64,000 bases of DNA from Blautia glucerasea (GTDB lineage: Bacteria > Bacillota > Clostridia > Lachnospirales > Lachnospiraceae): positions 1-64,000 of the forward strand of contig NZ_JAAITU010000009.1 in NCBI RefSeq assembly GCF_013304385.1, read 5' to 3'. The notes beneath the pieces are model-generated. The model was not told the origin of the DNA and searched no databases. It worked only from the letters and a program-made list of their open reading frames with translations. Numbering within the stretch: position 1 is the first letter of the stretch; every line of letters starts with the position of its first letter. A program made the position numbers and the translations under genes. Below are positions 2,380 through 35,166 of this stretch, one piece after another.

Positions 2380-5300
2380 TTACTTCACACGTACCTTTTT
2401 CGGTGAGGAATACGCTCCGTATACCTTACCGCTCTTTGTGCTGATATATGCACGCACTTTCACATAATAGGTTTTCTTGCTGGTAAGCCTCTTAGCAGTT
2501 GCTTTTGTAACTGTACCTTTCTTTACAGTAGCAGCCAGCTTATAGCCGCTTCCCTTTCTTTTTGAAACATAAACCTCATATCCATTGACTCTGGAAATTC
2601 TGCCATATTTCACAGTCAGAGATCGTTTGCCGCCTGTTACTCTGGAGATGGCTGCCTTCTTCGGTGCCAGTGTACTTTCGATCACTGCTGCCGGGCCTTT
2701 GGCGCTTAAGCTGCCCTGGATAAAGAATGGAATCACCTTGTATCTGTACTTGGTGCCATACTTCAGTTTCTTATCTTTATCCGTATACCGTGTGTTGGTA
2801 CCGCCGTTTAAGGTTGCACGCAGCACATATTTCTTTTTCGCTTTTTCATAGCGATATACATAGTATCCGGTTGCACCAGACTGCTGATTCCAGCCAATGG
2901 TCAGTTTCTTCTGGGTAGCACTAACCGTTTTGCCTCCGGTTACTTTCTTAAGGTTAGGCTTCACAATGTAGAATTCCACTGTTGCGGATCCTGCAAAGCT
3001 TCCAAGACCGCTGATCACTGCAGTTGCCTTTCCAACATTGATATTGCTGGAATAGAATACTGTATAATCCACACCTGCAGTAAGTGTACGTCCCATATAA
3101 GTAATATTAAGGGCAGGTGTTACAGCACTTCCTGTGTAATACTGATTGGGAACTGCCGCAATCTGTGCATAGCCAATGGATGTGGTTCCTGATGCCCTTA
3201 CCACCCGGAATCCATATTTTGCATAACTGCTGTCAGAGGTAAGTCTTACCTTAATGGTGCTTCCAGAAACCGTAACTGTCCGGTTTCGAAGCTCTGTACC
3301 TGTATAAGTACCAACCTTCTTTCCTGTGCCATCCATGATGTAAATGTAATCGAAATCATCCTCTGTCTCGGTATCCGAACTGAAGGTAATGGACACGGAA
3401 CCAGCACCATCTACATGATAGCTCCAGGTTCTGTCTTCATTGTTTGCATATGGATGATCTGACTGAAACTGGCTAAGATCTGTTACATTCACCATGTTAT
3501 CTTCCGGAGCTACAACAGTTACCTGGCAAGAAGCAGAAAGACCGCTTTCTGTAGCTGCAGTGATCACTGCAGTTCCTGGATCTCGTCCATAGACCTCACC
3601 ATCACCATATACGTCAGCCACATCATAATTGCTGGATGTGAAAGTAACACGGTCCGTTGCATCTGACGGATAAATATCATAACTCAGATAATAGCTTTGT
3701 CCATCTCTTATGGTAATATTCTGAGTATTCAGGGTAATCCTTTCAGCAGGTACATAAACCGTTACATTGCAATATGCATGGAAGGTATCTCCTATACTTG
3801 CCTCGATCAGTGTTGTTCCTGAAGATATTGCTTTAACAGAAGCAATGCTGTTGTTTTCTCCTGATGTAACCAGTTCTGCCACATCTGTATCATAAATGGT
3901 CCAGTCAACTCCCTGCTTTTCTGTTGTATCAAAGGGCAGGAAATTCACACTTAAAACAGCTGAATCATTTTTCTTAAGTTTTAATGCACTTTCACTGATC
4001 TGGATACCGGTAAGCGGATTCGTCACTCTTACCTTGCAAGTTCCTTTCACATCGCTCTTTGTGCTGACTGTGATCTCTGCATCTCCCACTGCATTAGCAG
4101 TTACTTTTCCATTTTCATCTACAGATACGATCTCCGGATGATCAGAAGTATAAGTAAGGGCTTCTGTTGCATTGGAAGGAGTAAGCAGTACTTCTACCGT
4201 GTCCTGCGCTCCCACACCATCCAGTTCCAGTGTTGGATAGATCATGCGGATATCTGTTACAGGAACATCCTTTACAGTTACACTACAAGTATCAGAATAA
4301 GCTCCGCAGGTCACTTTGATCTGTGCTGTTCCTGCTTTCAGGGCCTCTACTTCGCCTTTTTTACTTACACTGATGATATCTGTCTGCTCTGTTGTATATG
4401 TACATTTGTCACTTGCATCTGATGGAGTAACTGTTGCATTTAACTGCTCCACATCTCCAACAGAAAGTTCCAGTGTTTCCGGTAAGGATACACCAGTCGC
4501 CTTTTTCTCTTTCTTAAAGAGTGCAGTAACCTCCACATCCTTCTCAGGCATGATAAAGGTAGTGCTTGGGCTGTCTTCGTCTTCAAAAATTCCAGCATTT
4601 GCAGTCCAGTGGTCAAACACATAACCATTCTTTGCAGCTGCGATCACATCTATTTCTGTGTCTGAATCATAGTTCTTCTCATTTTCGCTTACAATGGTTC
4701 CGCCTTCACCAGCTGTGATCTTAAAGGAGCTTGTTGTAAGCAGACGCACATTTTCTGATGAATTACTGAGAAGAGAATATGCATCCTCTTCATTACGTCT
4801 TGGAGAATCTGTAGCCAGATACAGGTATGCTGCCTTGGAACCATCCATTGTGGTTCTTGGGAAATAAACAGTCCGTACTTCTCCCGGCTCCAGGGTTCCC
4901 ATATTTTCCGTGTAAAGCACAGCACCGTCCTTAGCATCTGCCAGGATACGGAAGCCTACGTTTTTAGTTTCCAGACCGCTGTCGTTTACAATCTGCAGGA
5001 CGATACATTCCTGATTATCCATCATTACATCATCCAGCTGCTCTACATAAAGCACACGATAGCCAAGTTCAAACTCTGCTGCATCCTGGCGTACCCCACT
5101 GCCAGCCGCAGACACTTCTATTCTGTAAGTTTCCGGCTCATCATCCACATTCAGTTCCGGAACAGGGTAATCGATCTGGATCTGTTTTTCTTCACCAGGC
5201 TGGATCACTACGTCTTTATGACCCTGACCAACTTCATAATCTTTCTCTGCACAAATGTAGGAAAGATCAATTCCCTCTGCTGCAAGATTTCCATTGTTCT

Positions 5301-8300
5301 TTACAGTGACCGTCATCGGCAGAGCCTGGTCAGAAGCAACATCGCTGTCCTCAAAATCTACTGACTGGATCTTCAGATCCACAGTTTCTTCTACTGTCTT
5401 TTCTTCCAGATCAGAATATTTTGTGGTGCCATTTTCGTCATATTCTGCTCTGTTGTAGGAAAGTACCAGCTTGCCATCCTCATTAAAGGCTCCTGAAAGG
5501 CCGGAAATAATACCTGCTCCAAGGTTTCCAAGACAATGTACCTTTCCAAAAGCACCCTTTTCCCAGATACATCCATAGACAGCCTTCTGATTCTGATCCT
5601 GATCAGATGAAGCAGTGGCAGTCCACAGGATATAGGTTTTTGTCTGGGAACTGATCACCTGGAAATCCTTTGTAAGATTTTCCGGAAGCTGTGCCGGGTC
5701 AAACACATAAGAAGCTTTGTCATTTACATTTGCTTTATAAGCAATATTCCCATCCTGATACCAGAACATATACTCTGTTCCATCAAGGCTTCCGGTAATG
5801 ATGCCGGAGGCTGCACTTCCTTCCTCTGTACCAAGATTTCCTGTTTCACCTGTATTGATCTGAATATAGCCGCTCTGTCTTGTTTCATCTACATCTGCAA
5901 GGGCCTGTACGCCTTCACCAGAGGTAAAGGTATAGGTAACAACCGGGCCGGAGCCTGATGCAGCTACAGAGATCTGGGAAATATAACGGTTTGATCCAAT
6001 ATCTACAGACTGTACGCTTCCTTTATTACCATTTGCATTGATAGAAGTATAGTATACATAACCTGGCAGTGTAGTCTCAAGCGCCTTGTTTTCAGTATGA
6101 TACCATGCCACATATGCAACACCGTCTTTCACTGCGATTCCAGGAATGGTATCTGTCACATTATTATCTGTAAGAGGATATGTACGGATCATATCAGAAC
6201 CGCTGCCATAGTGGATCACAGCTACACAGATCTCAGATGCGTTTGCCATCTGATCTACCGTAGCGGAAGAATCGTCAAAGGCCTTCTTTGTATCCTGCCA
6301 TGCCACATAGATCACTTTCTTTGCTTCGTCTACTGCAACTGCAGGTGCAAAGTCAGAAGTTCCGTCATCGTCAATAATGGTATATCCTGTTTCTCCTGCT
6401 TTCTGATATACCAGCTGGCTGCTGTTGCAGATCTGCTTTGATGGATCCTCATGGATCCAGAATTTATAATTGGTTCCGCCTGCATTTACAAAAATGGGAT
6501 TGGAATCCGAGCCTGCAGTAATTCCGTTATCTGTCTCCACACCTTCCTCTGACGCCAGAAGGAAAGGCTGTGCATTCAGTTCATCGTAAATATTCTGATC
6601 CTGGCAATATACAGAACGATCCTTCCGGTTGCTGTCATATACAGTGACCGTAGCCTCTGCCAGCTTCAAACTCTTCTCAAACTTCCACACTGCAGCTTTC
6701 AGGCTGGCAGATGCTGTCAGCTCACAAAGCTGGGTAGACTTTACAAAGTCCGCTGTATACTTAACGGTTCCTCTTCCCTCTGCGCCAAAATTGACAATCC
6801 CCTTGGAACCTACGCCGCCTTCAATTGCTACAGAGATAGAAGGTGCAATGGTTCCGCTGGTCCATTTCGGCAAAAGTCCGTTCAGGTTCAATCCGTTCTG
6901 GTTTATAATACTTCCTCTGATCTCTGCTTCGATCTTTCCTTCTCCGCTTACTGAGATGTATGTAGGAACGATCCAGAAGAAATTGGTGGTATGGCTTCCA
7001 GAAACAGAACCGCATGCCCTGACGACTATATTGACTATTACCTTTCCGTTATCCAGATATCCTTCTCCATATCCGGCAACATTAAATGTAGTCTTAAAGC
7101 TTCCTATATTAAGCTTTGGCTGCTTCTTTCCAAGCTTAAAGTCCTTTGCCTTAGATTCCAGAAGTTCTTTGTTCAGCTTTTCCTTTTCCTTCTGGGTGCT
7201 AGGCATAAACTTCAGATTCAGACCAACGCTTACCTTTCCATTGTCATCGGTTTTCACTTCCAGATCCAGCAGATCATTCATACCGAATTTCAGGGCATTT
7301 CCCATGAACAAGGCTGCAAGGGAAGATTTTCCCACATTCCCCTCTCCCATGGTCATGAATTTCATCTTGGTAATACCCTTTGCCGAAACTACTGGTTTGG
7401 AAACCTTCAGTCCAAACTGGATCTCTTTGGAAGATTTACCATCCTTGGAAACGCATTTTACGTATCTTTTTGACTGGGAAGTAAGCTTCTCGATCACAGT
7501 GCCGTTTTTCTTTTCCAGTGTTTTGAATTCAAATACACCGGTTTTATTCTTGGCTACCACAGACTCGTCCTGCATCAGGAAATAGACACAGTCATCCATG
7601 TCGGACTCAACATTGATCTTAACGGTCTTTGTATTCTTGGCTTTTGCGATCTCAGCGCTTGAATCCTCCAGAAATGAAACCGTATCGATCAGAAGGTTCT
7701 TGTCTCCCATTGTAACGGACTCAATCTCCGGAGTGGTGTCATTCAGATTTTTCAGGGTAAAGACCATTGATTCTCCACCCTTAAGTTTCTTGCGGATCAC
7801 CTTGGTGCGATACTGGTCTTTGGAAATGCTAATATCCACATCTCCGGCAATGCTTTTTATGTCATCAAAAAGAATCTTGCCGTTTTCATCTGTTTTTCCC
7901 TGAAGTGTCTGCCCATTCTGTCCTGTAAGAGCAACATCCACATCTTCCAGATATTCTTCTGTACCGGTATCCTTTACCTTGATCAGGAACTGGTTTTTCC
8001 CTACTGATTCATTACCTGAGCCTGCTGTAATGGAATTACCTACACTGATTCCATAATAGGTTGAAACTTCCATGGATTTGCCGGCAGCCAGTGTTTTAGG
8101 ATCAAAGCGGATCGCTACTGCACTGTCTCCCAGACTGCTTCCCTCATATGGATCATAATCCCAGTATTCTCCACGGATGGATGACCAGTTGGTAAAATAT
8201 ACCACATCAGGTCTGCGCTCATTTCCTCTGTAAAGATATCCTGTAGCCAGTGTGGTGGGATCATCCAGACGGTCATATACCTGATAGGACTGAGGGATTG

Positions 8301-9051
8301 CTGCCCCTGTAAAAGTACGGATCGTGGTCTGGTTTCCTACTCCTGGAATCCTGAAAGGTGCATCGTCATTGTTAGCAAGCATGGTATCCAGCATAATACG
8401 GATACCTACATCTACTGCACTTCCGGATACATTGATGGCCTGGTAAGAAATCCTTACTGTATCTGCATAGCTGGCATTTCCGCTTTTTACCAGTTCCAGG
8501 GTCTGTATGATCTGTACACCGTTGTAGGTCATGCTGGCAATTACTTTATTGCCCACACTGTTTACTGTATCTGCCTCAAAAAAGCGTTCCTGATCTCCTA
8601 CTTTGATCAGGGTTTCTGATGTATTTGGATTGGGATGTCCATACAGAAGCTTTCTGTTATTGTCAGAATCGTAGTTTGGATTTCCTTCACAGGTTCCCAT
8701 GGTAAACTTGCCTTCGCTGTTTACTACTGCTTCCAGATAATTATTTCTCAGCCAGCCTTCAGTTCCTGAAGAATGAACCGCCGCAGTCTCCGGATTCACT
8801 CCCAGGTACTGTCTTACATAGGCCTTATAGACCTCATACAGATGGATGTTCTCTTCTTTTGAAAGACTGTCCACATCCACACCCTGACTTTCCAGATATT
8901 CTCTGAAAGACAGAAGCGCTTCCGGCTCTTCTGATCCTTCCTCACCGGAATCAGAGAACTCTTCTGCCTCTGTACTGCCATCCCCAAACAGGGAGTCTGT
9001 CTGTGCTGTATCGGATGCATCTGAAAAAACACTGTCTGTATCACCAGACAT
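2380..9051 (-). CDS. Giant multidomain surface protein, main body (5' part cut off by an in-frame amber)
   Basis: An open frame of 2223 residues. In order, counting from the first Met: an N-terminal beta-rich region (~50-340), a carboxypeptidase-regulatory-like beta-sandwich (~350-440), a long uncharacterised central part, an InlB-type divergent repeat (~1440-1515), about four BIG2 immunoglobulin-like domains (~1517-1847), a CUB-like domain (DFDYIYIMDGTGKKVGTY), and two Fn3-like repeats at the C-terminus. There is no LPXTG signal. The Met at 9051 has no ribosome site, and the frame continues upstream through a TAG (9067-9069) into a perfect signal peptide with a good ribosome site. The natural gene is therefore 2380-9246, about 2288 codons, now interrupted. 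It is probably an adhesin or cell-envelope protein; the ligand is unknown. Confidence 0.8.
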   Translation of the reverse strand: MSGDTDSVFSDASDTAQTDSLFGDGSTEAEEFSDSGEEGSEEPEALLSFREYLESQGVDVDSLSKEENIHLYEVYKAYVRQYLGVNPETAAVHSSGTEGWLRNNYLEAVVNSEGKFTMGTCEGNPNYDSDNNRKLLYGHPNPNTSETLIKVGDQERFFEADTVNSVGNKVIASMTYNGVQIIQTLELVKSGNASYADTVRISYQAINVSGSAVDVGIRIMLDTMLANNDDAPFRIPGVGNQTTIRTFTGAAIPQSYQVYDRLDDPTTLATGYLYRGNERRPDVVYFTNWSSIRGEYWDYDPYEGSSLGDSAVAIRFDPKTLAAGKSMEVSTYYGISVGNSITAGSGNESVGKNQFLIKVKDTGTEEYLEDVDVALTGQNGQTLQGKTDENGKILFDDIKSIAGDVDISISKDQYRTKVIRKKLKGGESMVFTLKNLNDTTPEIESVTMGDKNLLIDTVSFLEDSSAEIAKAKNTKTVKINVESDMDDCVYFLMQDESVVAKNKTGVFEFKTLEKKNGTVIEKLTSQSKRYVKCVSKDGKSSKEIQFGLKVSKPVVSAKGITKMKFMTMGEGNVGKSSLAALFMGNALKFGMNDLLDLEVKTDDNGKVSVGLNLKFMPSTQKEKEKLNKELLESKAKDFKLGKKQPKLNIGSFKTTFNVAGYGEGYLDNGKVIVNIVVRACGSVSGSHTTNFFWIVPTYISVSGEGKIEAEIRGSIINQNGLNLNGLLPKWTSGTIAPSISVAIEGGVGSKGIVNFGAEGRGTVKYTADFVKSTQLCELTASASLKAAVWKFEKSLKLAEATVTVYDSNRKDRSVYCQDQNIYDELNAQPFLLASEEGVETDNGITAGSDSNPIFVNAGGTNYKFWIHEDPSKQICNSSQLVYQKAGETGYTIIDDDGTSDFAPAVAVDEAKKVIYVAWQDTKKAFDDSSATVDQMANASEICVAVIHYGSGSDMIRTYPLTDNNVTDTIPGIAVKDGVAYVAWYHTENKALETTLPGYVYYTSINANGNKGSVQSVDIGSNRYISQISVAASGSGPVVTYTFTSGEGVQALADVDETRQSGYIQINTGETGNLGTEEGSAASGIITGSLDGTEYMFWYQDGNIAYKANVNDKASYVFDPAQLPENLTKDFQVISSQTKTYILWTATASSDQDQNQKAVYGCIWEKGAFGKVHCLGNLGAGIISGLSGAFNEDGKLVLSYNRAEYDENGTTKYSDLEEKTVEETVDLKIQSVDFEDSDVASDQALPMTVTVKNNGNLAAEGIDLSYICAEKDYEVGQGHKDVVIQPGEEKQIQIDYPVPELNVDDEPETYRIEVSAAGSGVRQDAAEFELGYRVLYVEQLDDVMMDNQECIVLQIVNDSGLETKNVGFRILADAKDGAVLYTENMGTLEPGEVRTVYFPRTTMDGSKAAYLYLATDSPRRNEEDAYSLLSNSSENVRLLTTSSFKITAGEGGTIVSENEKNYDSDTEIDVIAAAKNGYVFDHWTANAGIFEDEDSPSTTFIMPEKDVEVTALFKKEKKATGVSLPETLELSVGDVEQLNATVTPSDASDKCTYTTEQTDIISVSKKGEVEALKAGTAQIKVTCGAYSDTCSVTVKDVPVTDIRMIYPTLELDGVGAQDTVEVLLTPSNATEALTYTSDHPEIVSVDENGKVTANAVGDAEITVSTKSDVKGTCKVRVTNPLTGIQISESALKLKKNDSAVLSVNFLPFDTTEKQGVDWTIYDTDVAELVTSGENNSIASVKAISSGTTLIEASIGDTFHAYCNVTVYVPAERITLNTQNITIRDGQSYYLSYDIYPSDATDRVTFTSSNYDVADVYGDGEVYGRDPGTAVITAATESGLSASCQVTVVAPEDNMVNVTDLSQFQSDHPYANNEDRTWSYHVDGAGSVSITFSSDTETEDDFDYIYIMDGTGKKVGTYTGTELRNRTVTVSGSTIKVRLTSDSSYAKYGFRVVRASGTTSIGYAQIAAVPNQYYTGSAVTPALNITYMGRTLTAGVDYTVFYSSNINVGKATAVISGLGSFAGSATVEFYIVKPNLKKVTGGKTVSATQKKLTIGWNQQSGATGYYVYRYEKAKKKYVLRATLNGGTNTRYTDKDKKLKYGTKYRYKVIPFFIQGSLSAKGPAAVIESTLAPKKAAISRVTGGKRSLTVKYGRISRVNGYEVYVSKRKGSGYKLAATVKKGTVTKATAKRLTSKKTYYVKVRAYISTKSGKVYGAYSSPKKVRVK

Positions 9052-9066
9052 CTGTGGCGGGATCTC

Positions 9067-9246
9067 CTATGCGTCCAGCACCTGTTCCTCGTCCACATCC
9101 TCTACGGCTTCCTGTGCATCTGAAAATCCTTCAGCTCCCACCTCTGTCACAGCTTCTTCTGCTGCCAGCAGTGAAAGCGGCTGCCCTGCAACCATGGATA
9201 CAGTCAGTAATGCACATAAAAACTGTTTCAACCTCTTTCTCTTCAT
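9067..9246 (-). pseudogene. Signal-peptide fragment of the giant surface protein
   Basis: A 59-residue frame with MKRKRLKQFLCALLTVSM, a hydrophobic core and an Ala-X-Ala-like cleavage region (LSLLAAEE), then an acidic stretch ending ...EEQVLDA followed by TAG. The start at 9246 has GAGGGAAAG upstream; a Met at 9270 does not. After the stop the codons GAG ATC CCG CCA CAG lead in the same frame into the Met at 9051 of the giant protein. A single base change (for example CAG to TAG) explains the break. If the stop is real, only this short secreted peptide is made unless ribosomes read through. Confidence 0.85.
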
Positions 9247-9351
9247 CTTCTTTCCCTCGTTTCTGTACATTTTTTATTTCTGTACATTCTTTCACGAAAA
9301 ATTATATCATGCAGTATAAATACAAACAACACATTTTCCTGTTTTTCATAA

Positions 9352-9410
9352 GCTTTTTCAAGCTTTGATATGCTTTTGATATGCTTTTAATCAGCTTTTC
9401 ATTAGCTTTT
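9352..9410. promoter_or_regulatory. Helically phased GCTTTT repeats between divergent genes
   Basis: Six direct copies of GCTTTT (one is GCTTTG) start at 9352, 9362, 9372, 9383, 9394 and 9405, spaced 10, 10, 11, 11 and 11 bp, about one helical turn. On the minus strand they read as phased AAAAGC A-tracts. They lie between the giant surface gene and the LytTR regulator gene. They may be tandem regulator sites on one face of the DNA or an intrinsically bent promoter region. Function is inferred. Confidence 0.55.
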
Positions 9411-9483
9411 CAAATTGTGAAAATACTGTTCATTCTCCCGAATTCATGTTATACTTTACCATAAACATAAGAGGTGACAGACA

Positions 9484-10230
9484 ATGAACATAGCATTAAT
9501 TGATGACATGCCCCAAGTACTTACCCATACCAGGAAGCTGATCCAGCAATTTGCTGATTCCAGCAATATAGATTTTTCCATCACCTGCTACTCCAGCAGT
9601 GAGGAACTGCTTGCAGATTTTACCCCACATAAATATTCCATACTTTTTATGGATATCTATATGGACGGACTGCCAGGCATTGAAGCTGCCCAGCAGATCC
9701 GCAGACAGGATGAAAGCTGCCTGATCGTTTTTCTGACAAGCAGCAGTGACCATCTGCCTCAAGCCTTCCACTGTCATGCTTTTGACTATCTCCAAAAGCC
9801 TGTCACGCAGAAGGATATTTCCCGTGTCCTTCAGGATGCCCTGCGTCTGATGCAGACAGATATCCAGTATCTGGAATTCACTCATAACCGCCAGACGGTT
9901 CGGATTCCCCATAGTGAGATCATCAGCATCCTTTCTGATGACCACCGTACCGTTGTTACAGACAATAAAGGCGGCCGTTATGATCCGCTGATCAGCTTTT
10001 CAAAGCTGACTGCTGATCTTGAAAATGAAAGCCGTTTCAGGCAGATTAACCGGGGGATACTTGTGAATATGGACTACATTTCCGGTTTTGACAGCAATCT
10101 GTGTATCCTTTCCAACGGCCAGAAGCTTCCTGTATCTACACGCAGACTTTCCAGGATCCGTCAGCAATGGGAGGATTATACGTTTGCCTCCATCCGTCAC
10201 AAGATGGCAGAAAGGAGACTTCATTCATGA
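9484..10230 (+). CDS. LytTR family response regulator (AgrA/ComE-like)
   Basis: A 248-residue two-component regulator. The receiver domain is residues 1-~120, with acidic pocket D7-D8 and phospho-acceptor D57 (ILFMDIYMDG). A C-terminal LytTR DNA-binding domain spans ~140-240 (FTHNRQTVRIPHSEI ... RQINRGILVNMDYI). A GAGGTG ribosome site lies 9 nt upstream. The stop overlaps the start of the kinase gene (ATGA). LytTR regulators bind direct repeats in promoters, so the phased repeats just upstream are candidate targets, pointing to autoregulation or control of the divergent surface gene. Confidence 0.93.
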   Translation: MNIALIDDMPQVLTHTRKLIQQFADSSNIDFSITCYSSSEELLADFTPHKYSILFMDIYMDGLPGIEAAQQIRRQDESCLIVFLTSSSDHLPQAFHCHAFDYLQKPVTQKDISRVLQDALRLMQTDIQYLEFTHNRQTVRIPHSEIISILSDDHRTVVTDNKGGRYDPLISFSKLTADLENESRFRQINRGILVNMDYISGFDSNLCILSNGQKLPVSTRRLSRIRQQWEDYTFASIRHKMAERRLHS

Positions 10231-11570
10231 CTTTACAGTATTTTTTCTCTGACGTTTGCACCTACCTTGCCATTATCCCTGCAGCCATTTTCTGCTTTCT
10301 TCCCACCAAGCAATATATGAAATGGTCATCCCGGTCCGTGATCCTTGCATTTTCACTTCTTTTCATCCTGATGGTGCCTGCTGGAGTCTGTTTGGGATTT
10401 TTCTTTCATTTGGATGACAATATCACAGTGGGGATTATGATCATCATATTTTTCATCGGTTACAACCGCCTTCTTACTACCCGTTTCAGCCAGAACCTGA
10501 ATACGTTCTGCCTGTGCATAGCACTGATGGCATTTTGCAGCAATTTTGCCAGAGGCTTTGACGCCCTGCTCCATCCTGCTGCACCTGCAAACAGTTTCAG
10601 TCTGGAAGCCTGTCTTTTTCAATTCGGATGCAGTATTCTTCTGGTTCTGCTTCTTGGGTGGCCGGTTGCCCATTTTGGAAGCAGGCTGATCCATTTTCTG
10701 AAGGCAGATGCCCCCTGGTACGCCATGTCTCTTGTTTCCTGTACATTTTTTATTTTGAATATTTTCATCATTCCCCATAACTACCAGGTACTTTATTCGT
10801 ATCGTGTATTTACTGTATTCTGGCAGATACTGGTTTGTATGATCTTTATGCTTTGTTTCATTTATTTTGTTTTCTATTTTGTAGCGCAGACAATTCTGAC
10901 AAATGCAGAGAATTCCCGGAAGCTGCGGCTTATGAGCATGCAGGAATCCCTGTATCAGAGACAGCAGCGATACATAGAGCAGACAGCTGTGCTGCGCCAT
11001 AATTTCCGTCAGACTGTAGTCACTCTCCAGGGTCTTTTAAATGAACAGGATTACGCTTCTCTTAGTTCTTATCTGGATGAATATATGAAAACCCTGCCTG
11101 TAAAGGAAACCAGTGATTTCTGCCAGAATTATGCCTTAAACTCCCTGCTGAATTACTATCAGCAGGCAGCACAGAATCAGCAGATCAAGACACACTGGAA
11201 AATCCAGCTTCCTTACAAAATCCCTGTGGGGGATGTGGATCTTTGCACTTTAGTGGGAAATCTTCTGGAAAATGTGATCAAAGGATGTAATACTGTGACA
11301 GACAGTCCTAAATACCATGATCTGTCCGTATCTGTAGAAAAGGAAAAGAATCTCTATATTGTTTCCACCAACAACTTTGACGGAAAAATAAACAAAAGAA
11401 ACGGGCAGTATCTGCCCGTGTATAAACAGGGAGGAAGCGGGATCGGTCTGTCTTCCATCGAGACTATCGCTGAAAAATACCATGGCTTCGCCCGGTTCTC
11501 CCATATTGGTACTGAATTTTATATTGATGTGATGATCCCGCTATGGCAGGATCTGCCGCCGCTTCAATAA
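10227..11570 (+). CDS. GHKL-type sensor histidine kinase
   Basis: A 447-residue membrane kinase. The N-terminal ~225 residues hold about six transmembrane helices. A dimerisation segment follows with the likely phospho-acceptor H258 (VLRHNFRQ), then a GHKL ATPase domain with N-box GNLLENVIKGC and G-box GGSGIGLSSIE. The start at 10227 is set by AAAGGAG upstream and the ATGA overlap with the regulator gene. This AgrC-like layout usually senses a peptide, but no precursor peptide or AgrB-like protease gene is seen nearby. Its 3' end overlaps the convergent dehydrogenase gene by 7 bp. Confidence 0.9.
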   Translation: MTLQYFFSDVCTYLAIIPAAIFCFLPTKQYMKWSSRSVILAFSLLFILMVPAGVCLGFFFHLDDNITVGIMIIIFFIGYNRLLTTRFSQNLNTFCLCIALMAFCSNFARGFDALLHPAAPANSFSLEACLFQFGCSILLVLLLGWPVAHFGSRLIHFLKADAPWYAMSLVSCTFFILNIFIIPHNYQVLYSYRVFTVFWQILVCMIFMLCFIYFVFYFVAQTILTNAENSRKLRLMSMQESLYQRQQRYIEQTAVLRHNFRQTVVTLQGLLNEQDYASLSSYLDEYMKTLPVKETSDFCQNYALNSLLNYYQQAAQNQQIKTHWKIQLPYKIPVGDVDLCTLVGNLLENVIKGCNTVTDSPKYHDLSVSVEKEKNLYIVSTNNFDGKINKRNGQYLPVYKQGGSGIGLSSIETIAEKYHGFARFSHIGTEFYIDVMIPLWQDLPPLQ

Positions 11571-25512: not shown

Positions 25513-27669
25513 TTATTTCAATTTAACAGTTGTTGCTGCCCATTTGCTATAAATCTTTGCCCCATTTGCTGTATTAAAGGTCCTCACACGAATATAAATA
25601 GTTTTTCCTTTGCCCAGATTCTTCTGAGTATAGGATGTTGCTTTCTTTCCAAGTACCTTCACAGTTTTATAGGAACCTTTCTTGGATGTTTTCAGCTGGA
25701 TCTCATATCCAACAGCACCCTTTACTTTCTTCCAGGTCAGTTTTACAGTTCCTTTTTTCGGAGATGAAGCCTTAAGTGCAGCCTTTCCAGGTGCGGTATT
25801 CGTCTTCAGGATTTCTGTTTTGCCTTCTGTTTTCTTGTTCTTTGTAAGAGACACGATCCGGAACTGATATGTAGTTCCGCTCTGGAGTGCCTGACCTTTC
25901 AGTTTCTTAAATACATAACTGTTCTTGTTTGCAGCAACATCAGCAATCTTTGTCCAGCCTTTGCTCTTTCCACCTTTTACATAAATGCGATAGCCTTTCT
26001 TCGCAGCCGGATCCTTCTGCCATGTGATCTTGATCTGTGTTTCAGATGTTTTTACTGCTTTTACCGGTGCTTCCGGAGCCTTGGTAGGTTCTACAGTAAC
26101 CTCCGGAGCCTGAGTAGGTGCCGGTGTTGCTGTTGGTGCTACTGGTGCCGGTGTTGCTGTTGGCTCTGCCGGAACCGGTGTTGCTGTTGGCTCTGCCGGA
26201 ACCGGTGTTGCTGTTGGCTCTACCGGTTTTGCTTTGATGGTAAGCTGGAAGGTTCCCTCTACCTTGCCATCATTAACAGCAGGATCTCCGTCCTTATTTG
26301 CTGCGGTTACCGTTACAGTTCCGGCCTTTTTTGCTGTCAGGATTCCATTCTCATCAATACCAGCCAGTTCCGCATTATCTACAGACCATGTAATCTGGCT
26401 GTCCCTGATGCCCTCCGGCTGAACCTGTGCTGTGAATGTTGCCTCATCACCTTCAACCACTTCCGTTTTCTCTCCAGAAACAGTTACTTTTGAAGCATAG
26501 GGCACAATGGTGATCTGTTTGGAAGCAGTTACATCAGCATCACTGTCACTCCATTTCTCATCCGTGGATGTTGCAGTTACTGTCACTGTGCCTGCAGCCT
26601 TTGGTGTAAGTGTACCATCACTGGTCAGGTCTGCATATTCTGTACTGTCAATGCTCCAGACAATTCCCTGATCTGCTGCTGCAGGTAATACAGACGCTTC
26701 CAGTTTAACACTTCCACGGCATTCCTCCGGTACACTGTCCAGGCTGATCCCGTTTGCTTTCTGGATCTTGCTCATAGTAGAAAGAAATGCACTAGTTCCC
26801 ATCTTTGTTGATGCCAGATTACCATAGAACCAGGCTTCTTCCAGAGAATTATCATTAGTATCTCCCTGAACAATGCCATAGAAAGCATACTGTCCTACTT
26901 CTGTAAGGCTGGATGGAAAGCGAACCTTTTTCAGATGCTGGGCATTCTGAAATGCACCATGGAATATTTTTGTTACGCCATCCGGTACAACATAGGTTTC
27001 AGCGTTCCTTCCTGCCGGATATGCATACAGGATAGTACCTGCTTTATCATAAAGCACACCATCTATATCCTTGAAGCTGGTGCTTTTCTCATCTACAAGA
27101 ATATCCATCAGGCTGGTACAGCCATTAAAGATACGTGTATGGGCAATTCCCTGCGGATTGGTACCAAATGTTTTTACACTTGCCGGAATTTCCACCATCT
27201 CCAGACTGGAACATCCATCAAACATATAGTTTGGCAACTGGGTAAGTGTTTCAGGAAGCTTAATGCTGACCATCCCTGAACATCCCTCAAAAGCAGTGCG
27301 TCCAGGTCCTTTTGTCTGGAATGTTGTAACTTTGGTAGCGGAAATATCTATACTGGTAATTTCTGTCTTTTTACAGAAAATCCCATTTTTAATCTGGGAT
27401 ACAGAAGCCGTTACATCACCTTTCGTCACTGCTCCTGGAACAACCACATCATACGCATCAGCACCACTGAGATCGATCATGCCCAGAGTTGCACTTGAGC
27501 CACTTATCACAAAATTATATACGATCCCATTATCATCCGTATAATTATTCTCTCCGTCCAGCTGTACAGGATCTGCATCGTCTGCTTTTACAGCTGCCGG
27601 TGCTGCCATCATAACAGCTGCTGCCATAGCGGATAAAAACAATTTTGCATGTTTCTTCATGTTTTTCAT
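25513..27669 (-). CDS. Secreted LRR/BIG2/Fn3 surface protein
   Basis: A 718-residue protein. It has a signal peptide (KLFLSAMAAAVMMAAPAAVKA), BspA-like leucine-rich repeats (~70-300; GCSGMVSIKLPETLTQLPNYMFDGCSSLEMVEIPA-type units), two BIG2-type domains (~310-480), a Pro-Thr linker with PAEPTATPV repeats, and two Fn3-like domains (~545-718). The start at 27669 overlaps the stop of the upstream 2031-aa gene (ATGA), so the two are coupled. It is the last gene of the moxR-DUF58-transglutaminase-like operon and probably a cell-surface substrate or effector of that system; this is an inference. Confidence 0.88.
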   Translation of the reverse strand: MKNMKKHAKLFLSAMAAAVMMAAPAAVKADDADPVQLDGENNYTDDNGIVYNFVISGSSATLGMIDLSGADAYDVVVPGAVTKGDVTASVSQIKNGIFCKKTEITSIDISATKVTTFQTKGPGRTAFEGCSGMVSIKLPETLTQLPNYMFDGCSSLEMVEIPASVKTFGTNPQGIAHTRIFNGCTSLMDILVDEKSTSFKDIDGVLYDKAGTILYAYPAGRNAETYVVPDGVTKIFHGAFQNAQHLKKVRFPSSLTEVGQYAFYGIVQGDTNDNSLEEAWFYGNLASTKMGTSAFLSTMSKIQKANGISLDSVPEECRGSVKLEASVLPAAADQGIVWSIDSTEYADLTSDGTLTPKAAGTVTVTATSTDEKWSDSDADVTASKQITIVPYASKVTVSGEKTEVVEGDEATFTAQVQPEGIRDSQITWSVDNAELAGIDENGILTAKKAGTVTVTAANKDGDPAVNDGKVEGTFQLTIKAKPVEPTATPVPAEPTATPVPAEPTATPAPVAPTATPAPTQAPEVTVEPTKAPEAPVKAVKTSETQIKITWQKDPAAKKGYRIYVKGGKSKGWTKIADVAANKNSYVFKKLKGQALQSGTTYQFRIVSLTKNKKTEGKTEILKTNTAPGKAALKASSPKKGTVKLTWKKVKGAVGYEIQLKTSKKGSYKTVKVLGKKATSYTQKNLGKGKTIYIRVRTFNTANGAKIYSKWAATTVKLK

Positions 27670-30600
27670 ACTACTTGGTTCCTTTCTCTTTTTCTGCGCT
27701 TCCACGCAGTTCTTGTTCTATTTACCACACAGGCCCTGATCCAGAATAAAAGATAAAGCCCGCCGGCCAGTGCGATCCCGGAAACAACCTTCAGTTCTCC
27801 AGGCAGCCTCTGACCACTGCTTGCACTAGCCACATTTGCCTGTTTGGCAGCTCCGCTGTTACTGCTTCCCAGGCTTGTTTTTGTTTCTGATTTTTCCGGC
27901 GTTTGTCCCTCTGTACTTTCCTTTTTGCTTTTCTCTTTTTTCAGTTTTTTCTTCTTTGTATCACTCTTCCCTTCTTTTTGATCTGGCTTCTTCCTGTCAG
28001 ATCCCACAGCTCCACGCTTTTCCTGTGGGTTTTCTGATGATCCGGAAGAAGTTTTATTCATTTTTTTCAGTACTCCATCTCCTTCTTCCACGCTGTCCTT
28101 GTTATTTCGGATGTATGCAGTGGATTGTTGTCCTCCCGGCCCTTTCTTCCCTGAGGAACCGGAAATATTGTTTGCCTTATTCTTATCCGTGCTGCCGCTT
28201 TTACGGCTGTCGGGAATACTGACTGTAAGTACATTGCTGAAATTGCCGGCTTCATCCTTCATAATGATATGGATTTCTTTTTCACCGGCTGACAGCTTTT
28301 TCAAAGTAATAATATTGGTTCCGGCGATCCCTTCAATTCCTTTTCCTGAGGTATCGATCTGGTCGCTTCCACCCTTTTCTGTTACCTTGTAATAATATCT
28401 TCCCTTTTCTCCTGATTTGAAGATCACAGAGGCCTTTTTCCGGGAAATGCGGCTTGCAGAAACCGGCTTCAGCACCGGAGCTGTTGTATCTTTGATATAA
28501 AGCTTCACAAAATAATCTGTTCTTGTCTGATCCTCTGCTGTTACAGCGATCCGGACGGATGCCTCAAAAACCTGTTTTTCAAAATAAACCCTGCACACAG
28601 GATGGCTGCCTGTATGATCTACCTCTATGGATTCATCTTCTTTTGATACTGTGGATTTCTTAACACCGCCCACTGCATAAACCTTTACCGTTGCCTTTGG
28701 GTCGGAAACCTGCGGCCACAGGTTCAGGTAACTTCTCTCTCCCTCATATACAGCCTGGTAGTTAATGGTTTCAGATGAAAATGCAGGAGTGAGTTTCAAT
28801 ATTCCTTTTCCATACTTGTCAGAGCTGCTTACATACAGCTGTTTCAATGCAGAATCTGAGCTTCGGCTGCTTTCAAGCGTGATCTCAAACCGGGTAGTTT
28901 CCTCTGATGCAACAAAATCCAGTGTTTTTGTGTAATATCCATCCAAAGACACCGTAACTGTATAATGGTTTCCCGGAAACAGTGTACAGCTTCCGTTCTC
29001 CTGAGGAACCGTCCTTCCTGTATCATCCTGGACCACTACCTGTGCCTGTGCCGGTGTTACCACAAAGGACACCGTCAAAAGCTTATATTCCTGAAGTTCC
29101 AGATGGACAGGTGTTTCCATTTTATTTCCATAGCTGTCTACAGCCAGAATATAAATGTCTTTTGCACTGCCTCCGGTCACATCCAGTTCAAAGGAATTTT
29201 CCCCCTGCAGAAGTTCTGTACCTGGCACAGACAGATCAAATACCGGTGCATCTGCCCCCTTGTCCACAGCCGCCAGGTAATAATATCCGGTTTCATTAGA
29301 TTTAAAAGAAACCTGTGCATGGTCCTGGTCGATCCGCACTGCCCTGGTATCGGAAAGAACCGGCGGATATGTATCTGTGCGCCGCAGCGCTACATGATAC
29401 TCTTTCACCGTTACTCCGTCCCCGGCTGTTACCTTCAATGTAACCTGTGCCACAGCTGCCTGGTCATCAAAGTAAACTGCAAACCGGGTCGCACCCAAAG
29501 TTCCTGCTGTATTTTCAAAACGCATGATCCTTCGGGTTCCTTCGCCGGCTTCTGCTGTAACCTTTCCAAAGCTTCCTGCCGGTGAAGCGAAAATATTCAG
29601 AAATTTCTTTCCCCCTGTATATACATCGGAAGTATAATCCGTAATATCCTTTGAGAAAGCCGGCGTTACCGGGATCTGACTTGCTGTAACATTCACTGCA
29701 TTATTATCGCTGACGATCAGCGATGCCAGGTCTGCATTGCTTCCAAGTCCCAAAAGTTTAAAACGGTAGGTTCGTTTCTGCTGACCATACTCAACAACTA
29801 CCTGTATCTCTCCCTCGCCCTGTTCATTCAGGGGCACTGTGGTAATGCCTGTATATGGCTGCCCGTTTACAGTAGCAGTCCTGCCACTTGGTATAGTCAG
29901 CTTTACAAAAGCCGCCTTTGTGCCATTTGGCATGGTCAGTGTATAGGAGCCTGTGGAAGAAGAAAAATCATCGTCCCATTTTACTTTTCCCTCCTGACAG
30001 GTGATATCCACATCATCCAGATAAGCACTGTTAGAGGAAATTGCCATCAGATATCCGGAGTCGTTCTTATAATACAAAGTACCGTCGCTGTCAGCACAGA
30101 TAGTACTGATACAGTACTGCTGCTGTTTTTTGTCCGGAATGTACAGGTCCTCGGCTTTTCCTTCTGTCTGTCCCGGCTCGTCAGAGATAAAGCTGATTCC
30201 GCCCGGGTATACATTATAGGTAAAGTAAACGTACACCCTTCCATCCGGTTTGCCGTCTCCGTTATAATCCTCGTTTTCATAGGCAGTGGAAAGGGTTGCC
30301 CCTGCCTGGGGATATCCCCGGATAGGCACGGAATATGCACGGTACAACCCGTTTGCATCCTCAGTAAGTACATCAAAATGATGGCCTGCATCCTCCTGGA
30401 ACTGTCCGCCGGTTCCGCATACACCAATGTAGATACGACCATTATGGACCACCGGTGACGCAGTTGCCATTCCTCCCAGGGAAATAGCCACAAGCTGGCC
30501 AAAAGTTCCATCCGCATGCATCTGCACCCTGTAAAGGATGCCGCCTTTTGTTGCAAAATAAATGTATCCGTTGTCGTACACAATGGAAGTACGGATATCC

Positions 30601-33600
30601 CCATCCAGTCCGGAAATCATATCAATCTGGATTCCGGTTTTTGCTGATACGGAATACAGGATCGATGAGGCTGTATAACTGCCCTCCCGTGAACCGTCAT
30701 CTGATCCGAAAACCAGATATTTTTCTGTTGCATAGGAGCCGGCCCAGTAAAATCCGCCCATATGGGAGAATTTCCAGGCACATTTCTTGATCTCTGTCGG
30801 ATTGTCCGGATCCTCGTCTGTAACAGAAAGGCAGAAATATGTACCCTCCTTGCTTTCTGAATTCCAGGTTCCTGTATAAATATACCCGTTTTTATAGGTA
30901 ATAGGAGAAAGCGTCTGTCCTCCCAGCACCTCACTGATCCATACGGATTTCAGGGTCGTGGCATCTACTGCCTGGACCTGCCCGTTTCCTACCTGTGCAA
31001 AGATCATTCCTTCCGCATAGGTCAGGGGATTTAAGGCAAAAACAAGACTTCCCTTCAACTGGTCACTTACAGCCAGGATCTTGCCTGTTTCCTTATCAAC
31101 CTTATAAATATATTTACCTGATCCTGTATACAGCTGTCCCCCGAGGATCAGTGGGGGAGTACAGGATTCGCTCCAGCTGCTGCTGATCTGAAGTGCCCAC
31201 TTTTCGCTGGTTTCCTTAGGGTTATTTGGTGTACTTACGCTGGTAACACCGTTATTTTCTTCATTGTTGCGGTAATTCCACCACTCATTGTCTGTCAGTT
31301 CCTCATGCTTGGTATCTGCCCGTTCCAGACGGACCTTCAGACTTCCACCAGGTTGTGCAGTAAAGGTTCCTGACTCAGTTTTAAACCCGTAACAGCTGAC
31401 CGTATAGGAATATTCCGTATCTCCTTTCAGGCCTGCAAACATATTGGGTTGATTCTCTGAGGGCATCACCCTTTTTCCCAAAGGATCATATACACAGACT
31501 AATGCATCCTCCGGGTCTGTCTGGAAAGTCATATCCGAAACAGCAGATCTTTTTATGGTGATGGAATAATTTCCCTCTGTGGTATACGTTTTCCCGGCCA
31601 GAGCCCCTTCCACATAAGTTTCTTCCTTTGCAAGCCTGACAGGGATCACTGTAACCGGATCGGTGATGGGAATTTCAAGCTCTTCGCCGCTTTCCCATGG
31701 CTGTCCATTGATAAACAGGCTGTACCCTTCCTCCTGTTTGATGGTTGCCTTCACATAAACCTGTTTTACCTGATCGGTTATAGAGGCTGTATAATCAAAA
31801 ACATTACTGAAAAATCTTTTCTCGTTAAAAATTGATTCTCCGTCTGACGAGTCCGAACAGGTCAGATCATTCAACGCCAGGGTGCGAGTGACAAGGATCT
31901 TGTAAACCTCCTGTTCTTCACCGTTTCCTACAGTGACTGTACAGATTCCTCTTCTGGCGCCATATTCACCTGATTTGAAGAAATCTCCGGTAAATCCATT
32001 ACGATAATCCAGATTTTCTTTCGACAGCAGCATTTTCCGGCTCAGTGGATTTCCATTTACATCTGTGGCACTCATTACAGCTTCCGAACCAGCAGGTGCA
32101 AAAGCAGAAAGGCTTGCAGACAGAAAGAACGAGTAATTGGAACTGTACTGATTGCTGTATTCAGCAACATAGGTAATACCTCCCAGTTCCTGATCCAGCT
32201 CTTCATGGCGTACCAGTGTTTTTTCCATTCCACCGGAACCACTGTGCTGCCTTGTGTTCAGAGTCATTTCCTCCAGATAATGGCCCTTGGCTTTCTGTGT
32301 AAATTCAATATTAATATGACCGTTTTCCTCTGTTGCCGTAAATTGGCCTTTTACCCGCTGGTATCCATCTGCATAGGCTACATAGGAATAACTGTTGTTT
32401 TCAAGAAGTCCTGTAAAAATAAGGGGATCTTCTTTATTAGAGGTGATCTTGGCCCCATACTGATCATGCATCTCCACAAAAAAAGTATCTCCAGCCCCTT
32501 GGCTCTCTGTAGAAAAAGTCATGTTCAGAGATTTTTGCACAGGATGTATATGCAAGGTGTAAACCGTATCTTCTACACCTTCGTAGGAAAGACAGATTTC
32601 CACATCCTCTTCCCCGCCTTTTAATACACAGGCATATTCTTCGTCAGTAGGCGTTTCTGTTCCATTTATCGTAACCCGGTATTTTTCCCGTACATCTGCA
32701 TATTGGCAATAATAGGTCTCAGGAAACAGGGATAAGGTCTGTCCTGTGGTATCTCCCGGAAGATACAGATCATATTCTTTCTGGAAATCCGGGTCTTTAT
32801 CTGCAAACAACTCTTCCCGTTCATGGTTGTAAAGCACATATTCCGTTCCCTGATAGGCTGCTTTCAGATATCCCAGAGAAAGAATACGTTTTACATGTAC
32901 CAGGTAATCTTTTGTGCCGCTTTTTGAATGGATCTGCATGGTATTTTCACCCGGTCCATAATCCACAATATAATCCATTGCCTGATAATTGCCATACTTT
33001 GCATAGGCATTCAGATTTACGCTTTCCCTTTCCCCATTGTGATTTACATAAGTAGAAAGTACAGGTTCTGAATAACTGGACACGCCAAGACCGTAAATTC
33101 CTTTTGTAAAATCCGGTAAATACAGAGTATACTCATGGATCTCCGGTGAAAAATCCGGTACAGTCTTGTAGATCACATCACCTTCTGACATGGTAGTCCT
33201 GGAAGCAAAGCTTAACTGCTCCAGCCAGTCATCACTATCCTTTGTCGCATCCTCAGAATCTGCATCTTTCCCTGAATCCGTGGCACTGTTATTTTTGTCT
33301 GTTTCCTGACTCTGATCTTCCTGACTCCCTGTTGCCCCCTCCTGGCTGTTATCTCCTTCCGACGGCGTTGTCGTTGGTTCTGGCGGCACTGCTGTTGGTT
33401 CTGACGGCGCTATCGTGGGGTCTGACGGTGCCATTGTGGGTTCTGACGGCGCTATCGTCGGTTCTGACGGCGCTATTGTGGGGTCTGACGGCGCTATTGT
33501 GGGGTCTGACGGCGCTGCTGTTGGTTCTGGCGGCGCTGCTGTTGGTTCTGGCGGCGCTGCTGTTGGTTCTGGCGGCGCTGCTGTTGGTTCAAACAGTGCT

Positions 33601-33761
33601 TCTCCTGTTTTTTCCTCAGTCTGTACTGCCGATGCCCCTGCAGTCTCTGCCTGGACTGCTTCTTTGGTTATCTGTGGCTCTTTTATCTCTTCTGCTAATA
33701 CCGGAACACTGCTAAACAGCAGTATCACGGACATATAAACGGCCAGCAATTTCTCTTTCAT
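27666..33761 (-). CDS. Giant surface protein with beta-propeller and cadherin-like domains
   Basis: A 2031-residue protein. The signal peptide is KEKLLAVYMSVILLFSS. Next come eleven heptad repeats of (E/D)PT(A/I)AP(P/S) at ~54-130, cadherin-like beta-sandwich repeats (starting near ~187, 623, 1340 and 1633), a PQQ-like beta-propeller (~850-1237; LYTGSGKYIYKVDKETGKIL), a low-complexity Lys/Ser-rich stretch, and a C-terminal membrane helix (~1990-2010) with a basic tail (KRRKRER). No LPXTG motif is seen, so it is membrane-anchored rather than sortase-attached. It starts 1 nt after the DUF4430 gene stop. The role is probably adhesion or extracellular assembly. Confidence 0.88.
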   Translation of the reverse strand: MKEKLLAVYMSVILLFSSVPVLAEEIKEPQITKEAVQAETAGASAVQTEEKTGEALFEPTAAPPEPTAAPPEPTAAPPEPTAAPSDPTIAPSDPTIAPSEPTIAPSEPTMAPSDPTIAPSEPTAVPPEPTTTPSEGDNSQEGATGSQEDQSQETDKNNSATDSGKDADSEDATKDSDDWLEQLSFASRTTMSEGDVIYKTVPDFSPEIHEYTLYLPDFTKGIYGLGVSSYSEPVLSTYVNHNGERESVNLNAYAKYGNYQAMDYIVDYGPGENTMQIHSKSGTKDYLVHVKRILSLGYLKAAYQGTEYVLYNHEREELFADKDPDFQKEYDLYLPGDTTGQTLSLFPETYYCQYADVREKYRVTINGTETPTDEEYACVLKGGEEDVEICLSYEGVEDTVYTLHIHPVQKSLNMTFSTESQGAGDTFFVEMHDQYGAKITSNKEDPLIFTGLLENNSYSYVAYADGYQRVKGQFTATEENGHINIEFTQKAKGHYLEEMTLNTRQHSGSGGMEKTLVRHEELDQELGGITYVAEYSNQYSSNYSFFLSASLSAFAPAGSEAVMSATDVNGNPLSRKMLLSKENLDYRNGFTGDFFKSGEYGARRGICTVTVGNGEEQEVYKILVTRTLALNDLTCSDSSDGESIFNEKRFFSNVFDYTASITDQVKQVYVKATIKQEEGYSLFINGQPWESGEELEIPITDPVTVIPVRLAKEETYVEGALAGKTYTTEGNYSITIKRSAVSDMTFQTDPEDALVCVYDPLGKRVMPSENQPNMFAGLKGDTEYSYTVSCYGFKTESGTFTAQPGGSLKVRLERADTKHEELTDNEWWNYRNNEENNGVTSVSTPNNPKETSEKWALQISSSWSESCTPPLILGGQLYTGSGKYIYKVDKETGKILAVSDQLKGSLVFALNPLTYAEGMIFAQVGNGQVQAVDATTLKSVWISEVLGGQTLSPITYKNGYIYTGTWNSESKEGTYFCLSVTDEDPDNPTEIKKCAWKFSHMGGFYWAGSYATEKYLVFGSDDGSREGSYTASSILYSVSAKTGIQIDMISGLDGDIRTSIVYDNGYIYFATKGGILYRVQMHADGTFGQLVAISLGGMATASPVVHNGRIYIGVCGTGGQFQEDAGHHFDVLTEDANGLYRAYSVPIRGYPQAGATLSTAYENEDYNGDGKPDGRVYVYFTYNVYPGGISFISDEPGQTEGKAEDLYIPDKKQQQYCISTICADSDGTLYYKNDSGYLMAISSNSAYLDDVDITCQEGKVKWDDDFSSSTGSYTLTMPNGTKAAFVKLTIPSGRTATVNGQPYTGITTVPLNEQGEGEIQVVVEYGQQKRTYRFKLLGLGSNADLASLIVSDNNAVNVTASQIPVTPAFSKDITDYTSDVYTGGKKFLNIFASPAGSFGKVTAEAGEGTRRIMRFENTAGTLGATRFAVYFDDQAAVAQVTLKVTAGDGVTVKEYHVALRRTDTYPPVLSDTRAVRIDQDHAQVSFKSNETGYYYLAAVDKGADAPVFDLSVPGTELLQGENSFELDVTGGSAKDIYILAVDSYGNKMETPVHLELQEYKLLTVSFVVTPAQAQVVVQDDTGRTVPQENGSCTLFPGNHYTVTVSLDGYYTKTLDFVASEETTRFEITLESSRSSDSALKQLYVSSSDKYGKGILKLTPAFSSETINYQAVYEGERSYLNLWPQVSDPKATVKVYAVGGVKKSTVSKEDESIEVDHTGSHPVCRVYFEKQVFEASVRIAVTAEDQTRTDYFVKLYIKDTTAPVLKPVSASRISRKKASVIFKSGEKGRYYYKVTEKGGSDQIDTSGKGIEGIAGTNIITLKKLSAGEKEIHIIMKDEAGNFSNVLTVSIPDSRKSGSTDKNKANNISGSSGKKGPGGQQSTAYIRNNKDSVEEGDGVLKKMNKTSSGSSENPQEKRGAVGSDRKKPDQKEGKSDTKKKKLKKEKSKKESTEGQTPEKSETKTSLGSSNSGAAKQANVASASSGQRLPGELKVVSGIALAGGLYLLFWIRACVVNRTRTAWKRRKRERNQVV
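33358..33600 (-). repeat. 21-bp tandem repeats coding heptads
   Basis: About eleven 21-bp units inside the giant gene encode (E/D)PT(A/I)AP(P/S) heptads. Several units are near identical at DNA level, so copy number could vary by slippage without breaking the frame. Confidence 0.8.
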
Positions 33762-33762
33762 T

Positions 33763-35139
33763 CTACCAATCCCCCCATGTTTCACCTCCGAGCATCGCTT
33801 CACCAATATCTGCTCCATAATATAAAGTGAAACGTACCCGTATTTCATCCCCATCTGCTGGGAAATAGGTATTCATTCCTGAACTCAGATACGTACCGTT
33901 TACAGAAAACATCCATCCGGCTCCTCCGGTAAGCGTACCATCTCCCAGCCAGTCAGGGGAGCAGGTTTCCGGATCCGGAATGTCATTTACATCCTCCAGA
34001 TGCTGCAGAATCTCTGCCGGAATCTGATATCCCAAAGTGATTCCCGGACGATCCACGGATTTAAGGTAAAACCCAGCATCCATAGATCCTGTATAATGAT
34101 ACTGGAACCCTGAAGAATAAAGCACACGGTTCAGTACATAAGGCAGGGTTTCTTCTTCATAAAACGGAACCTCTGCCGGCCCGATCAGGTATCCCAGTCC
34201 CATAGTGGAAGCTTCCAGGCTGAAGGTGATGGTTCCTGCAGGCTGCTCTTCTTCCTCATCTCCTGTGATTTCCTTATATACAGTCACACTCACTGTATCC
34301 TGATTGCCATATCTGTCCTGTGCCGTAATACTGATCGTATTCACATCATCAAGATATGCTTTGTATTTGATCACCCCATTATCCGTTGAAATACTGGTAA
34401 GATGCTGTCCATTGCAAAGCACAGTCAACTGGGAAGGAGTCAGTGCCCTTTCCTTATAGTCCTCTGCATAAACAGAAAATACCCTGGATTCCCTGTGGAT
34501 CACTTCTCCATCCTGCAGGTCTGAACTGATAGAAGGCCGCAGATCCTCCACCTCTGGAGTTGGCGTAGGCGTATTCTGTGGAACCTCAGCCTCTTCCTGA
34601 TTATAATCATCATCTCCGGCTTCTGCGTGATCTTCCTCTATCACCTGGGTGTCATCAAAGATTTTTGTAACTGGCTTTTCTTCTCCATTTTTATCGTCCT
34701 CTGAAGCGGAAGGCTTCTCCCCATTTCCATGCTCGCTGGTCTGTGTACCCGGATCTTCCGGCTGTTCCTGTGAATTTCCCTCATTTAGATTCTCCTGTAC
34801 AGGCTTCTCCGGTACAGGCTCTTCCTGTGGTTCCTGTATTTCCTCTTTTTGCTCTTCCTTTGGAGCCTGGGAAGGCGTAGGAGTGGGATCCTCCTGCATC
34901 AGCACTTCTGTTTCCGGCTGTTCTTCTATTGTATCCTCATCGCTGCTGACCACAGGAGTATAATACCCTTCACCTCTGTAGAGAACCTGGGATCTTTCCT
35001 GATTTACACCTGTAACAGGATTCTCCGGGATTTGTTTTTGCTGTGATCCTATTTTTGCTGCAAATCCGGCAGTAAGCAGGATCAGACACAAAATCAGCCC
35101 TAGCACTGCCGCTGCTTTTCTTCTTTGATCATGCTTCAT
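33763..35139 (-). CDS. DUF4430 domain membrane-anchored protein
   Basis: A 458-residue protein with an N-terminal signal anchor (AAVLGLILCLILLTAGFAA), a long acidic Pro/Glu-rich linker (~45-205), a beta-sandwich region (~215-300), and a C-terminal DUF4430-like domain (~305-458; LPYVLNRVLYSSGFQYHYTG, GAGWMFSVNGTYLSSG). DUF4430 is related to the C-terminal domain of cobalamin-binding intrinsic factor, but no ligand can be assigned. It has a GGGAGG ribosome site and lies 27 bp after the transglutaminase-like gene in the same operon. Confidence 0.83.
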   Translation of the reverse strand: MKHDQRRKAAAVLGLILCLILLTAGFAAKIGSQQKQIPENPVTGVNQERSQVLYRGEGYYTPVVSSDEDTIEEQPETEVLMQEDPTPTPSQAPKEEQKEEIQEPQEEPVPEKPVQENLNEGNSQEQPEDPGTQTSEHGNGEKPSASEDDKNGEEKPVTKIFDDTQVIEEDHAEAGDDDYNQEEAEVPQNTPTPTPEVEDLRPSISSDLQDGEVIHRESRVFSVYAEDYKERALTPSQLTVLCNGQHLTSISTDNGVIKYKAYLDDVNTISITAQDRYGNQDTVSVTVYKEITGDEEEEQPAGTITFSLEASTMGLGYLIGPAEVPFYEEETLPYVLNRVLYSSGFQYHYTGSMDAGFYLKSVDRPGITLGYQIPAEILQHLEDVNDIPDPETCSPDWLGDGTLTGGAGWMFSVNGTYLSSGMNTYFPADGDEIRVRFTLYYGADIGEAMLGGETWGDW

Positions 35140-35166
35140 CTGTGCCGCCTCCCTTCATAAAGATTT

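Follow-up and report, generated by a model that had tools for sequence, protein, structure and literature searches.

The locus considered here raises the question why the gene of a very large protein, apparently meant for export, carries a stop codon shortly after its signal peptide. It lies on the minus strand of the window, i.e. the whole stretch of 64,000 nucleotides of Blautia glucerasea DNA that was analyzed. The frame starts with an ATG at 9246, preceded by the ribosome-site-like sequence GAGGGAAAGAAG (9247–9258, minus strand), which is nearly the same in the close relative described below. Its first 59 codons (9070–9246, minus strand) comprise the signal-peptide-like N-terminus MKRKRLKQFLCALLTVSMVAGQPLSLLAA, which was judged by eye and is kept in the relative, and an acidic linker, after which follows an in-frame TAG (amber) at 9069–9067. 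The same frame then remains open for 2,228 codons (2380–9066, minus strand) up to a TAA at 2380, 2,223 of them counted from the methionine codon at 9051, and encodes the body of a modular exported protein with Flg_new_2, Big_2, CUB and fn3-like modules. This arrangement had been described in the initial annotation and was found as described. The 30 bases that surround the TAG are found a single time in the window, and an 801-base query around it gave one match in its own genome. The interruption does not stem from a chance open frame: in a codon-usage scan that covered 291 kb of this genome, the piece upstream of the TAG was classed as coding, and the relative has a single frame running through this point to which the sequences on either side can be aligned.

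Only one other genome yielded a close copy when 61 genomes and, separately, 64 genomes of the genus were searched; the collections compared hold one genome per species, and a contig scan likewise gave this genome alone as relative. The copy (genome G022, contig ONBN01000080.1) belongs to the isolate RUG154, a member of the same genus, and is 88% identical over the body. The codon alignment of both genes comprises 2,290 columns, of which 2,013 are identical and 3 contain gaps. A comparison of the interrupting codon in close strains had been proposed at the outset; in RUG154, a different species, the column of the window's TAG holds a glutamine codon and the frame is continuous there. RUG154 has an in-frame TAG of its own at a different position (ONBN01000080.1, 2563–2565), namely at codon 709 of its frame as compared to codon 60 in the window, and in this column the window has a glutamine codon. 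Codon by codon, no other internal stops or frameshifts were found in either copy.

To cover more distant homologues, the N-terminal domain was searched against 397 genomes of the family, which gave 12 matching genomes besides the window's own; an earlier search added G036 and G040. From these 14 distant homologues 12 were fetched, leaving out the weak homologues G040 and G321. All 12 examined have a signal-peptide-like sequence before the domain, in the same open frame and with no intervening stop. Together with the glutamine codon of RUG154 this indicates that the TAG is derived. Judged from the sequences compared, it would be a recent nonsense mutation, or else a sequencing error, in a protein that is normally exported. 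The homologue in G114 (L178) changes its reading frame at about 3910–3928 and looks frameshifted, so that 3 of the 14 copies examined (the 12 distant ones, the window and RUG154) are broken in some way.

The evidence on decoding points to TAG being read as a stop in this organism. In the 291 kb sampled from the window's genome it terminates 24 of the 221 complete ORFs called with confidence, and in 258 kb of RUG154 the count is 24 of 182; in one example a TAG-ended ORF of 1,502 codons is followed by a neighbour which starts with its own ribosome site. Release factor RF1 is intact (361 aa) in both genomes. Among 58 tRNA matches in the window's genome, 57 have an anticodon readable by ARAGORN and none of these is CUA, with the proviso that 150 of 170 first-look candidates were scored and a very weak tRNA could escape; the 41 tRNA matches in RUG154 do not include a CUA tRNA either. 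The best PylS hits in the window's genome reach 23 and 20.8 bits, compared to a cut-off of 178. A stimulatory RNA structure around the TAG was not detected, the fold being no better than shuffles (z -0.57), and a conserved stop position, a criterion for programmed readthrough, is absent, the TAG of RUG154 lying elsewhere. Suppression, which the initial annotation had offered as one possibility, is therefore unlikely, given the regular use of TAG as terminator, the intact RF1 and the missing CUA tRNA; the other part of its proposal, a recent interruption by a single codon, is supported by the glutamine codon of the relative and by the lack of a second stop.

The age of the stop can be bounded. 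Between the window and RUG154 the gene shows a dN of 0.064 and a dS of 0.446 (dN/dS 0.144), so selection has maintained it during most of the period since these species diverged. The gene's codon composition predicts about 248 nonsense mutations for each unit of neutral divergence, with transitions weighted twice. As no second stop is found in the frame, either the stop arose recently or is an error, or the frame continues to be used; unconstrained decay would have lasted for less than about 0.012 substitutions per site (95%, Poisson), which would correspond to about 5% of one branch to RUG154. The kind of stop is also easily accounted for. Glutamine is encoded by 73 CAG and 1 CAA codons in the window's copy and by 69 and 3 in that of RUG154, which makes TAG the stop codon most likely to arise by a transition, and for the same reason two ambers facing glutamine codons are no sign of recoding.

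With a probability of roughly three in four, the locus represents an ordinary, recent nonsense allele of a gene for a large exported modular protein. We infer that the cells do carry this TAG and that it abolishes the function of the gene. In its intact form the gene encodes a signal peptide and an acidic linker, together with a beta-sandwich domain and Ig-like, Big_2, CUB-like and fn3-like modules. One of the linker's glutamine codons would have become TAG by a point mutation, ribosomes would stop after 59 residues and RF1 would release a short, secreted acidic peptide. The body would either not be made, or would arise as a low-level cytoplasmic product by restart at Met 9051 and then lack the export signal. 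The separate amber of RUG154 together with the dN/dS of 0.144 suggests a dispensable gene which is lost now and then rather than a new code. For annotation this would mean that the 2,223-residue ORF is not a leaderless protein starting at Met 9051, but the interrupted remainder of an exported one.

The finding that the orthologue carries a different amber is nevertheless a mildly odd coincidence. Confident ORFs were scanned in both genomes (250 and 191, together 174,685 codons), and no other convincing mid-gene interruption was seen, at a power to detect a single stop of 53% and 59%, respectively. The codon-usage scan of the window's genome flagged 12 pairs of ORFs separated by a same-frame stop, the amber included. 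Eight of the 11 others were inspected in sequence: seven read as adjacent genes and the eighth (window 20811) as a frame that does not convince. For the other three (window 47780, 38627 and 24037) the judgement came from the ORF list only, in which an ATG of its own opens the second ORF. The scan of RUG154 gave 7 other pairs, judged from the printed residues, of which L142 14251 and L148 6910 are ambiguous. The chance of a second hit in a gene of this length is at most about 7% (a rough 95% bound), a mild surprise which has to be read in view of the fact that the sample was not blind, as the gene had been chosen for its stop. A rather unlikely extension of the preferred reading would explain the coincidence by alternating selection, e.g. 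on a phage receptor or immune target, under which recent null or leaky ambers would recur across species while over longer times the gene stays intact; if the TAG is decoded leakily, small amounts of the giant protein might still be exported. If both ambers hold up in reads, they would point to a surface protein which is repeatedly switched off in these bacteria. Full-text literature searches on recurrent nonsense alleles of gut surface proteins returned general papers only, and we make no claim of an unpublished phenomenon.

The main rival to a real nonsense allele is an error of sequencing or assembly, with the gene intact in the organism. Such an error would fit a single altered base in an otherwise intact and conserved gene, an assembly of 175 contigs and the fact that the RUG154 assembly likewise has a lone TAG in the same gene. 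Against it stand the location of the site in the interior of a 91-kb contig, at 9 kb from the end, and the absence of any other convincing interruption in 291 kb of the same assembly. Moreover, the odds of an error in a given gene are low at usual consensus quality, and we consider this explanation unlikely.

Less probable still is a leaky amber, in which a near-cognate tRNA reads the TAG often enough to be useful and some full-length protein is exported. The 2,228 codons without a second lesion and the occurrence of one TAG facing glutamine in each of two species could be taken in its favour. In E. coli reporters (PMC11126739), TAG readthrough inserts Tyr, Gln or Lys and is mostly below 1% at 37°C; other literature found on readthrough or restart at premature stops consisted of general papers. 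The position of the stop is unconserved, RNA structure is not above that of shuffles, CUA tRNAs were not found, RF1 is intact and the match to glutamine simply follows from codon usage, all of which makes a useful leakiness quite improbable.

The initial annotation had also stated that no ribosome site precedes Met 9051. This was too strong: a Shine-Dalgarno-like AGGAG (9064–9068, minus strand) shares bases with the TAG and is separated by 12 bases from the downstream ATG (9049–9051, minus strand), which itself follows 15 bases after the TAG. Reinitiation at nearby internal methionine codons has been reported (PMC6728339), and from the sequence a cytoplasmic restart at Met 9051, with a product devoid of the export signal, appears possible. 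That the cell deliberately makes a second, cytoplasmic form in this way is, however, very doubtful, as RUG154 has GTG in place of the ATG and, at the AGGAG site, AGGAGG as coding bases (Gln-Glu codons), and as all 12 examined homologues have the export signal in frame and the modules are of exported types. The idea that the organism reads TAG as glutamine or even pyrrolysine, which would draw on the two TAGs that face glutamine codons in the same gene of both species, has next to no probability, since a changed code, pyrrolysine and a suppressor tRNA are ruled out by the TAG terminators, the intact RF1, the lack of a CUA tRNA in both genomes and the PylS scores below cut-off in the window's genome.

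Directly after the amber lies a terminator-like hairpin with a T run (9033–9050); 2 such elements were found in the region as compared to 0.4 in shuffles. Where ribosomes are absent over the hairpin, it could make a nonsense mutation polar.

Among known systems, the locus resembles natural amber alleles such as rpoS396 of laboratory E. coli K-12, which also represent recent in-frame stops in otherwise intact genes; in contrast to rpoS396, no suppressor tRNA was found here, and the gene encodes a large exported protein instead of a regulator. A TAG facing a glutamine column also recalls genetic code 15 (TAG to glutamine) of gut phages, a recoding that is shown for crAss-like phages (PMC9523058). 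Unlike in those phages, TAG ends many genes here and CUA tRNAs are lacking. As to the protein, the signal peptide and the Flg_new_2, Big_2, fn3-like and CUB modules are shared with modular surface proteins that carry Big_2, InlB-B-repeat and fn3 domains, from which the window's protein differs in an N-terminal domain that lies below every Pfam cut-off and is predicted to resemble the beta-supersandwich of GH94 and YidC proteins (TM 0.18–0.44). As an interrupted gene, it is ordinary in kind.

In detail, the body from Met 9051 (2,223 residues) contains Flg_new_2, three Big_2 stretches, a CUB match and an fn3 match just under the cut-off. For its N-terminal domain Pfam gave no family at cut-off. 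NCBIfam gave nothing above cut-off and a profile search against solved structures nothing significant. A structure model of body residues 61–450, made from an 11-row alignment (mean pLDDT 76.4, pTM 0.64), places a large beta-sandwich domain ahead of an Ig-like domain. In the PDB it comes closest to cyclic glucan synthase entries, GH94 phosphorylases and YidC periplasmic domains; the query TM-scores among the 50 matches listed are 0.18–0.44, which suggests a general fold class only. Near DNA copies were absent from the plasmid and phage collections searched.

The gene is divergent from genes for a LytTR response regulator (9484–10230) and a GHKL-type kinase (10101–11570). Between the regulator and the interrupted gene, about 6.5 copies of an 11-bp unit are found (9343–9412), of which the upstream region of RUG154 has far fewer; they are possibly binding sites of the regulator. 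Further large modular proteins are clustered at 25513–37521, comprising an LRR_5/Big_2/fn3 protein (25513–27705), a Cadherin-like protein of 2,062 aa (27666–33854), a DUF4430 protein (33763–35139) and a transglutaminase core protein (35167–37521).

Some tRNA genes of the window's genome are also worth recording. The 58th tRNA-like gene (L086 197–271; G000:C87:122796–122870) scores above the Rfam cut-off and has an anticodon loop of six bases, its anticodon being unreadable. In addition, four low-scoring tRNA genes (Arg, Tyr, His and Glu) stand in a row at L073 (G000:C136:8950–9700) and are perhaps phage-borne, and two equal-scoring tRNA-Leu (aag) genes (L084 and L085; G000:C153:7942–8026 and 10254–10338) lie in opposite orientation about 2.3 kb apart.
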